Assembly: GCA_019096065.1 (NCBI GenBank)
Contig: JAGUCH010000004.1
Coordinates: 8,308,001 to 8,372,000 of the forward strand
Length of the DNA stretch: 64,000 nucleotides
DNA from: Paracyclopina nana
Lineage: Eukaryota > Arthropoda > Copepoda > Cyclopoida > Cyclopettidae
Reading direction: 5' to 3'
Shown here: piece by piece, positions 36,165 through 61,072 of the stretch
Layout of the letters: each line of letters starts with the position of its first letter
How positions within the stretch are numbered: position 1 is the first letter of the stretch
Notes under the pieces: generated by a model
Told to the model about the DNA's origin: nothing
The model's input: the letters and a program-made list of their open reading frames with translations, nothing else
Databases searched by the model: none
Position numbers and translations under genes: made by a program

Positions 36165-36343
36165 ATGGAGGCATTCAAGCATAGAGCTGCGGAATTTCGC
36201 ACCAGATCTTCATCCCTGATCCTGCCTAATCGAAGGAAAAGGTCGGGAACGTCACCAATCATCATTCACCATGCTCCAATCATCAAGCACAACCAGTTAA
36301 TCTACAACTTTTTCACAAGTGGAGAAGCTTTGCACCACACCAA
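36165..36343 (+). CDS. Candidate distal first exon of the plus-strand PDE4
   Basis: ATG 36165 opens a 59-codon basic and Ser-rich segment (EFRTRSSSLILPNRRKRSG) ending in ACCAA followed by GTAAGA, a strong donor in phase 2. That phase joins the UCR1 exon at 41730 to give [14 protein letters not shown] and an isoform of about 747 residues. Evidence is only the open frame, donor strength and phase, so it may be wrong. Confidence 0.4.
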
Positions 36344-37798
36344 GTAAGATTGGCATGCTAACTTTCTGCTAAAATTGTGTGGAGTTTTTCGCCAGATGCA
36401 ACAATTACTAACGCTAACACTTTTCATTACAAACGTAATCAGTTTCGCTCCCAAAAGCCAAGTACAAAAGAAAACCAGCTTGCCAACAGGAAAGAGGTTT
36501 CCTGCTGTATTTTGTATCCTCGTTTTGCTCTAATCTATGCTACATCCAGCATTTGGCCGCAAACCAACGCATGAAAGGAGGCCGTAATATCAAAGAAATA
36601 TTATGATGAGATAGCTTAGTTGAAAGTCAGGAGGCATTGCCAAAGATGCCTCATTTTGGTGGCCAAAAAAATGCATCAAGTTGATGCCCAAATTAAAGCA
36701 AGAATGCAACGGTTGACGCAGCCATCGCGCCACAAAAACTGTTGAAAAACTCGTGAGTCTAGAATCTATGGCGCCATAAAGACCGTTGGCAATTCTGAGC
36801 GAAAATCCAGGCGCCAGGAGGTCTACGCTCAGATCCCTGAAAACTGGCGTAGCATGAAAAATGAGCCAAATACAGACTGAATGAGACAATTGCGAAACCG
36901 CCCAAATAAACAGAGCTGAATGGAAGAATGGGAAAGAAGAAGAAGAAAGACGGATCTGCATGCGAGAGAATCGCGAGAGCAAAAGAGCGAGAGAGAGAAT
37001 TCCAGTCGCGCTGTTTCACCCAACGCTCAAAGGACATAGGCATCTGATACACCTCAATTTGGGATTTTACGCCGGGCAATATGGATAAAATGGATTTTTG
37101 GTCGAAAGCAAAGTGAATGGAAACGTGAGTAATTTTAACATTCTCGTAAAAAAATATCAATGCAAGATAGCTCTGCTAGCTATTGCTTTCTTTTTGATAC
37201 ATGCATAATTTAGCGAATTTTTTTAGCGACATTTTGCATCATTCTATACCTGGTGATGAAATTAGCCTTGCATTTTCGATGTACACGATGCATCATGAAT
37301 AAATCATCCCCACCAACTTTGTGTGAAGTATAGGCTGTAATGCAAATGAAAGCTACACTATAGAAAGCGTCTCATTTTTCCAAGCACGTATTTTATAGCT
37401 TGGCTTAGCTAAATCTCATCATCATACAACCCAGTACCCGGGTACAAGAGGCCATGGTTTCGGCCTCTAAAATCTCACGAGCATAAAATTGATCAAGTGC
37501 CAAAGTCGCGGGGGAATTTTTAAGGGAGCTTGCATTTTTTTCCGTCAACTCAGCGCAACAAAGGCCAGAGTGGGCGGACCGATTGGCATTTCGCGAGAAA
37601 TCCATCCTTCTTATTTGCAGGACCGGAAAATGTCCGAAGACTGCATGAAAGTGGCGAAAAATAACTTGAAGGTAAAAGATGTTGAAATTGTTATCAATGA
37701 ATGCAATGATAGCGTATTTTTTCCAATAGGTGAGTCGGTTGACTTCGCGGGACGCCTTTTTGGCCAGTTGCCCCGAAGACAGCAGCAGCTCAGCTTTT

Positions 37799-60300: not shown

Positions 60301-61072
60301 CTTTTCTGACCTTTCAGCATCATTTTTGCAAAGTTTGAGGGGCCACCAAAAAGTTGCACTAAATATACACCTGATTCTCCCCTTTTTTAGCTTCGTGTAG
60401 AATGTGCGCGTTTGTGTTTGCTCTGCTCCTTTAATAAACTTGAAAGGGCAAAAGCAAACGGTCCATATCACGTACAGAACGTCCCACACTACTGGGAGTA
60501 CTTTTCAGACCAACCGAGACTGCAGTTTTCAGGCAAATGATTCGTCTCTAGCTTTCTCATAAATCGTCATTAATTTCAAGAATAATTGATATCAGTTAAA
60601 GCCCATTGATAACACCGATTTGGACCATTTTAAAAAGCCAACGTCATAGCAAGTGGGCTTACTGCTTGAACTTTTCACTGCTCCAAAAGGACCTCTTTTT
60701 CTTGATCCTCAGCACTGAAGTGGACAAAGTTCTTCCGAGGGACTTTTGCTTGACCAGCAGCCTCTGTTTGCTGCTGTTCACAGCATTCTCACTATTCTCC
60801 TCTTTCGGCTGCTGCTGCGGCTTTGCGTGGCCCTGCGAGAGCCTGTGGTTGGGGTCCAGAAATTGGCCACATCTGAGGCTGCCAGACTCCAACTGGGACC
60901 GTAGTTTACACACTCCGCCGTTGCGGTCAGCAGCCTCGAAATGGAGCTGCTCATTGCTTGGCAAAATTTTGGGGTCGGAATTGAGCCTCAAAAATGGCGG
61001 CGGTTTGGGCGAATTGTTCTCGAAGGACAGCTGCTTTCTCGTCATGCTGTCTAACCGGTTCTCCTGGCTCAT
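51331..61072 (-). CDS. cAMP-specific phosphodiesterase 4, minus-strand copy
   Basis: Exons: 61072-60663, 60160-60059, 59812-59751, 59697-59585, 54396-54306, 53610-53306, 53222-53121, 53023-52859, 52710-52611, 52544-52390, 52319-52197, 52142-51960, 51900-51630, 51506-51331; together 785 residues in one frame. The N-terminal exon ends [19 protein letters not shown]1 second half is [23 protein letters not shown]2 reads [17 protein letters not shown] and [18 protein letters not shown]. Catalytic motifs [25 protein letters not shown] and [12 protein letters not shown] are intact, so an active cAMP hydrolase is expected. The last exon adds [16 protein letters not shown], the conserved PDE4 C-terminal signature. 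Reading through the 51630 donor instead gives a stop at 51556. A UCR1 first-half exon was not found and may lie right of the window. Confidence 0.92.
55256..55984 (-). CDS. UCR1-less alternative N-terminal exon of the minus-strand PDE4
   Basis: ATG 55984 opens 243 codons: Ser-rich sequence ([18 protein letters not shown]), a basic segment ([13 protein letters not shown]) and a C-terminal [18 protein letters not shown] followed by FLRKSK and a GT donor at 55255 (GTTCGA, weaker than consensus). The phase-0 end joins exon 54396 (FKRML), giving about 799 residues. Order, phase and the CxCxxCx7C motif match the plus-strand exon at 47115-47441, so both genes kept this alternative promoter. Confidence 0.8.
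56001..59584. other. Large intron of the minus-strand PDE4, no other gene recognised
   Basis: This 3.6-kb stretch lies between the UCR2 exon at 59585 and the alternative exon at 55984, so it should contain the promoter of the UCR1-less form. Short open frames on both strands are unsupported. Confidence 0.5.
60235..60242. promoter_or_regulatory. Single CRE palindrome in the minus-strand PDE4
   Basis: TGACGTCA (in context TTGACGTCAA) lies in the intron between the N-terminal exon and the UCR1 second-half exon. It matches the CRE pair of the other copy, but one such 8-mer is expected by chance in about 65 kb. Confidence 0.3.

Follow-up and report, generated by a model that had tools for sequence, protein, structure and literature searches.

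A convergent pair of PDE4 genes from an apparently old three-gene family, one with glycine in place of an adenine-contacting asparagine

PDE4 is a major off-switch of cAMP signalling, and the Drosophila PDE4, dunce, is a memory gene; flies have one such gene, with several promoters. The genome analysed here appears to share the use of several promoters with dunce, and has three PDE4 genes against the single gene of flies. At the sequence level we compared two of the three, called A and B below, with PDE4B and PDE4D (chains 4wzi, 3g4g and 3g45, which we take to be of human origin). A and B resemble them in the order UCR1–UCR2–catalytic domain, in the metal ligands, in Gln369/Phe372 and in a catalytic identity of 75–77%. 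They differ at residues 321 and 333 (Gly321 and Cys333 in B, Val333 in A); both are also one UCR2 codon short, and FQFELTL was not found in A. Several PDE4 genes in one invertebrate are already known: according to PMC5526615, Schistosoma mansoni has four (PDE4A–D), with differing regulatory modules, and C. elegans has a single pde4 gene. The first-pass annotation had called a PDE4 pair unusual, many invertebrates having one; the four S. mansoni genes weaken that view. That paper reports the ERK motif P-x-S/T-P to be absent from its helminth sequences, whereas A and B have it. A literature search for arthropod PDE4 paralogues and copy number returned nothing relevant, but most subscription papers were outside its scope, and absence should not be read from it.

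The window, that is the whole stretch of 64,000 nucleotides that was analysed, corresponds to C4:8308001-8372000, in a genome of 92 Mb comprising 10 contigs; positions below are counted along it and continue past its end. Gene A (plus strand) and gene B (minus strand) are PDE4 genes that converge tail-to-tail, with 14 modelled exons each (A, 41730-50828; B, 65373 down to 51331). The models of A, B and the third gene, C, were built by hand and GT-AG junctions were sought, so that their uniform GT-AG borders are partly by construction; they begin at the first UCR1 exon and do not fix where translation of the long forms starts. The features of gene A are:

41730-41927, plus strand: UCR1 exon a, containing FLYRSDSD and, at 41833, the RRESF PKA site
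42770-43464, plus strand: putatively spliced alternative first exon; phase fits the downstream UCR1 exon, skipping the PKA site
44259-44360, plus strand: UCR1 exon b, 102 bp
44421-44470, plus strand: linker exon, 50 bp
44522-44637, plus strand: UCR1/UCR2 junction exon, 116 bp
47088-47441, plus strand: candidate short-form first exon, CTCRKCS...LRFRK; open frame with start not fixed, putative splice whose phase fits UCR2
48063-48153, plus strand: 91-bp exon of the UCR2 core, a codon fewer than in gene C and PDE4B/4D
48267-48542 and 48743-48900, plus strand: UCR2-to-linker 2 exons
49388-49486, plus strand: start of the catalytic region, WGLDVF, 99 bp
49545-49709, 49770-49869, 49934-50088, 50148-50270 and 50335-50517, plus strand: catalytic exons of 165, 100, 155, 123 and 183 bp (PF00233)
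50371-50373, plus strand: codon AAT, Asn321 in PDE4D2 numbering, adenine contact retained
50580-50828, plus strand: last exon, with PISP (P-x-S-P ERK consensus); stop at 50826-50828

The features of gene B, in the order of transcription, are:

about 65486-65650, minus strand: candidate N-terminal exon (MAKFMARK...), further out than the models; donor read by eye
65194-65373, minus strand: first UCR1 exon, beyond the window end, QRRESFLYKSDSDFE, with the RRES PKA site
60663-61072, minus strand: putatively spliced alternative first exon (ATG at 61072); phase fits the UCR1 exon, skipping the PKA site
60160-60059 (102 bp), 59812-59751 and 59697-59585, minus strand: UCR1 exons
55256-55984, minus strand: candidate short-form first exon, CKCRRCS...LRKSK; putative splice, phase fits UCR2, donor GTTCGA weak
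54306-54396, minus strand: 91-bp exon of the UCR2 core, lacking the same codon as its counterpart in A
53306-53610, minus strand: UCR2-to-linker 2 exon, 305 bp, a single exon against two in A
53121-53222, minus strand: start of the catalytic region, WGMDIF, 102 bp
53023-52859, 52710-52611, 52544-52390, 52319-52197 and 52142-51960, minus strand: catalytic exons of 165, 100, 155, 123 and 183 bp (PF00233)
52104-52106, minus strand: codon GGT, Gly replacing Asn321
51630-51900, minus strand: exon with the end of the catalytic region and PLSP (P-x-S-P ERK consensus)
51331-51506, minus strand: putatively spliced last exon, with IQFQLTL (starting at 51450) and the stop at 51331

As the first-pass annotation had proposed, the two genes converge with 502 bp between their stop codons, provided that the last intron of B (51507-51629) is spliced; if it is retained, B stops at 51556. 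Both proteins contain PDEase_I (PF00233; 305.8 bits for A and 311.8 for B, cut-off 24.8) and PDE4_UCR (PF18100; 162.1 and 166.8 bits, respectively, cut-off 26.9), and the best-scoring solved chains for both are named PDE4. Of 45 solved chains matching B at E ≤1e-100, 43 are named PDE4 and the other two (6fg5, 6ezu) only 'Phosphodiesterase'; PDE3 is not among these 45. With the catalytic part of A, the first 43 among the best 60 of 151 chains are named PDE4, followed by 6fg5, 6ezu and then PDE1, 8, 7 and 9. Judged from the domain scores, the similarity of A and B to PDE4 is far above chance. The earlier claim that both genes are complete within 36165-61072 did not hold, as the exon of B carrying UCR1 and the PKA site lies beyond the window; an exon at 36165 was not linked to gene A, its peptide matching nothing but itself below E 0.13 among the sequences searched. 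A gene B without a PKA site (there is none in 36-62 kb) was considered and rejected once the exon at 65194-65373 was found.

We consider A and B to be functional convergent PDE4 genes of the dunce type, members of an old family of three (A, B and C) on one contig, with a probability of roughly 0.85. The spliced models stay open across UCR1 (PKA site included), UCR2 and the catalytic domain; the proteins are strongly conserved.

The long forms of A and B would be dimers activated by PKA. The two alternative first exons resemble each other (75% over 20 residues, tblastn E 2.9e-6), as do the two candidate short-form first exons (CxCRxCS...; 41% over 32 residues, E 8e-8), and splice phase suggests that each gene may make forms starting in the middle of UCR1, without the PKA site, as well as short forms with UCR2 only. 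The short-form exon peptide of A also had a weak match (E 0.011) in a locus beyond the 5′ side of B. The P-x-S-P of both genes follows the ERK consensus P-x-S/T-P (as given in PMC5526615 and PMC12839185). The FQF motif is described, in PMC5290487, as a docking site for several partners and as part of CR3 binding across the catalytic pocket. B has IQFQLTL near its C-terminus and C a degenerate IQLHIT in open frame, while in A a strict search found no FQF motif and a looser search around the stop gave only FKYVT (51310), which was not counted. The proposal that all regulatory modules were kept in both genes is therefore not confirmed for A. Gene A would have lost the FQF docking tail and gene B would have kept it in altered form, and roles may be divided between the genes. 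Instead of two equivalent copies, A and B thus look like genes that differ in docking and in how they contact the substrate.

We examined the residues of the active site under PDE4D2 numbering; of 21 numbers, 20 agreed with the PDE4D chain, and the mismatching one, Glu304, was dropped. The metal ligands His164, His200, Asp201 and Asp318, and His160, are kept in A, B and C (numbering by alignment). Gln369, Phe372 and Asn321 are all present in A and C, whereas B has Gln369 and Phe372 but glycine at 321, its codon lying two base changes from the AAT of A. Among the 20 residues, A and C each differ from PDE4D at one (Val333) and B at two (Gly321, Cys333), the position being threonine in PDE4D. The first-pass statement that both genes keep all catalytic residues thus holds for the metal ligands as well as for His160, Gln369 and Phe372; it does not for Asn321, an adenine-contacting residue that B appears to have exchanged for glycine.

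Asn321 and Gln369 hydrogen-bond the adenine of cAMP in PDE4D (PMC12839185), and loss of the former may loosen adenine recognition, making B a weaker cAMP enzyme or one that accepts cGMP. Such a shift in substrate use, which is compatible with our reading of A and B as functional PDE4 genes, is a tentative possibility. The cysteine of B at position 333, where A and C have valine, points the same way, as do the PDE3 chains, which have glycine at the place matched by motif (LADINGP in the solved chain 1so2). Against it, B keeps Gln369, Phe372 and 16 other checked residues. The glycine might also mean reduced activity, which would speak against B as a functional gene. The D-x-x-G-P of B is like that of PDE3, but its best sequence matches are PDE4, and position 321 was compared only among the three genes, PDE4B, PDE4D and PDE3. 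It is improbable, though conceivable from the sequence, that B is a full UCR1/UCR2 PDE4 whose PDE3-like glycine makes it hydrolyse cGMP or be inhibited by it; if true, gene B would be a PKA-gated arthropod PDE with cAMP/cGMP cross-talk beside ordinary PDE4s.

We analysed how the pair arose with the help of the third PDE4 gene, C, which genome-wide PDEase_I and UCR searches revealed from C4:6435621 onwards on the same contig, 1.9 Mb from A and B. Its model has 12 exons (5621-8371 of the extracted locus), with a provisional 3′ end; a retro-copy was considered and rejected, because introns are kept. A whole-genome search with PDE4_UCR (best 8 candidates scored) gave at least nine exon matches, with A, B and C contributing three apiece. 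A further PDEase_I gene, with HDLDHRGTNN, lies at C4:8563217-8564077, about 200 kb from the pair, with no PDE4_UCR match listed there. The introns of C that correspond in place to the internal first exons of A and B measure 66 and 56 bp, and the 10 kb around C yielded no good match to these exons.

The first-pass annotation derived the pair from an inverted duplication that carried introns along, on the grounds of equal exon lengths. Seven lengths are indeed equal in A and B (102, 91, 165, 100, 155, 123 and 183), others differ (50/62, 116/113, 276+158/305 and 99/102), and lengths 113 and 102 are common to B and C but not A. As both are PDE4 genes with introns, a duplication at the DNA level fits. 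The equal catalytic lengths, however, do not prove an event particular to A and B, because C has 165, 100, 183 and, as one exon of 278 with the intron absent, 155+123; within this genome they are characteristic of PDE4. The same lengths occur in the catalytic exons of human PDE4 genes; a literature search on PDE4 exon lengths gave nothing useful.

Catalytic identity over 307-308 residues is 81.1% for A-B, 79.2% for A-C and 78.8% for B-C, and that of A, B and C to PDE4D is 76.9, 76.5 and 75.6%, and to PDE4B 75.2, 77.2 and 73.9%, respectively. For codon analysis 363 codons were chosen for conservation from 773 alignment columns, a choice that lowers dN. Nucleotide identity in this set is 0.773 (A-B), 0.709 (A-C) and 0.725 (B-C), and fourfold sites agree at 41/119, 29/110 and 30/112, respectively, against about 0.25 by chance. 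Because the fourfold sites are near saturation, the copies are old. In the same conserved codons dN is 0.08-0.13 by NG86 and 0.07-0.10 by maximum likelihood (ML), where dS is 1.7 for A-B and 9.5 and 12.0 against C, values that mean saturation only; A, B and C look to be under purifying selection. Sliding identity between A and B ranges from 0.72 to 0.82, with no abrupt near-identical patch.

In an ML protein tree of A, B, C, PDE4B and PDE4D (517 of 774 columns, 200 bootstraps), A, B and C stand apart from the PDE4B/4D pair at 100% and A groups with C at 56%. None of the three topologies is rejected (AU p of 0.313 for A+B, 0.683 for A+C and 0.392 for B+C), and catalytic sites split 2 (AB) : 3 (AC) : 3 (BC). 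Most likely, and with fair confidence, A and B come from one duplication after their ancestor had split from C, because they share two internal first exons and a UCR2 codon deletion (SE-SKSG, where C reads SESSRSG and PDE4D SEMSRSG), and because their fourfold identity is slightly higher. The tree and the lengths 113 and 102, confined to B and C, count against this grouping, and the internal exons common to A and B may go back to the ancestor of all three genes, C having lost them.

It is unlikely that the pair arose recently, by a single inverted duplication of one PDE4 gene. Such an event would account for the head-on orientation, the seven common exon lengths, the UCR2 deletion in both copies and their fourfold identity above chance, but near-saturated fourfold sites are not those of a recent event, most of the catalytic lengths recur in C, the A-B protein identity barely exceeds that of A-C and B-C, and a later inversion could give the same orientation. 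One inverted duplication and a tandem duplication followed by inversion are indistinguishable here.

We also considered whether the convergent 3′ ends matter. The nearest signals, by consensus only, are:

51110-51115, plus strand: poly(A)-like AATAAA nearest the gene A stop, 282 bp past it
51190-51195, minus strand: poly(A)-like ATTAAA after the gene B stop, 136 bp past it

If these signals are used, the RNAs of A and B would end before meeting, each gene probably ending inside the 502-bp spacer. The antisense transcripts suggested by the first-pass annotation are possible but not required, and their regulating the pair as overlapping sense-antisense RNAs is quite improbable: the stops are merely 502 bp apart and two more poly(A)-like signals on the strand of A (51520 and 51540) lie inside gene B, but the nearest signals would stop both RNAs before contact. 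The tail-to-tail layout probably has no special function.

There is next to no chance that the pair is an assembly artefact (a false inversion or a haplotype duplicate), and we rejected this on the divergence of A and B, as the best DNA alignment between them is just 69.9% identical over 1027 bp and their introns and C-termini differ. Between 36.0-51.3 kb and 51.3-62.0 kb, blastn gave six segments in opposite orientation, and the translated exons match too.

Elsewhere in the window we observed a retroelement-like frame of 1527 residues near the window edge (3-4583, minus strand; it matches reverse transcriptase, RVT_1, and weakly an aspartyl protease), the nucleoporin gene Nup85 across two open frames (5556-7711, minus strand), a tRNA-Ser (GCT) (8423-8496, minus strand), a short-chain dehydrogenase exon (13681-14058, plus strand), a cluster of tandem repeats (15851-21170 and 25158-25447) that includes arrays of 46 bp (6.9 copies), 169 bp (9.0) and 210 bp (7.7) as well as 14 copies of a 21-bp unit, and an immunoglobulin-domain protein (26329-32143, plus strand) with eight Ig_3 stretches in a frame of 1244 residues and more Ig in the next frame. 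On another contig (C6), positions 1-2610 of locus L023 form a second stretch resembling rDNA, which matches SSU, 5.8S and LSU; for SSU the match is short, with 1176 bases and 715.6 bits, versus 1326.6 bits for the SSU of locus L024. Genome-wide, the cuticle RR domain PF00379 gave 80 exon matches, which suggests that the genome is probably that of an arthropod; the 14 control genomes were all silent and so gave no positive control. The insect odorant receptor family gave no matches genome-wide, the control being silent too, and COX1 gave none in the genome, with the control positive in 8 of 14.

Taken by itself the convergent layout looks ordinary, and the pair looks like an old, ordinary expansion of a gene family, save for the lost cAMP-recognising residue of B. 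The glycine at position 321 is a lead on substrate recognition rather than a result. A family of three genes with varied regulatory parts and one change in a base contact would offer a natural experiment on the specificity and docking of PDE4.
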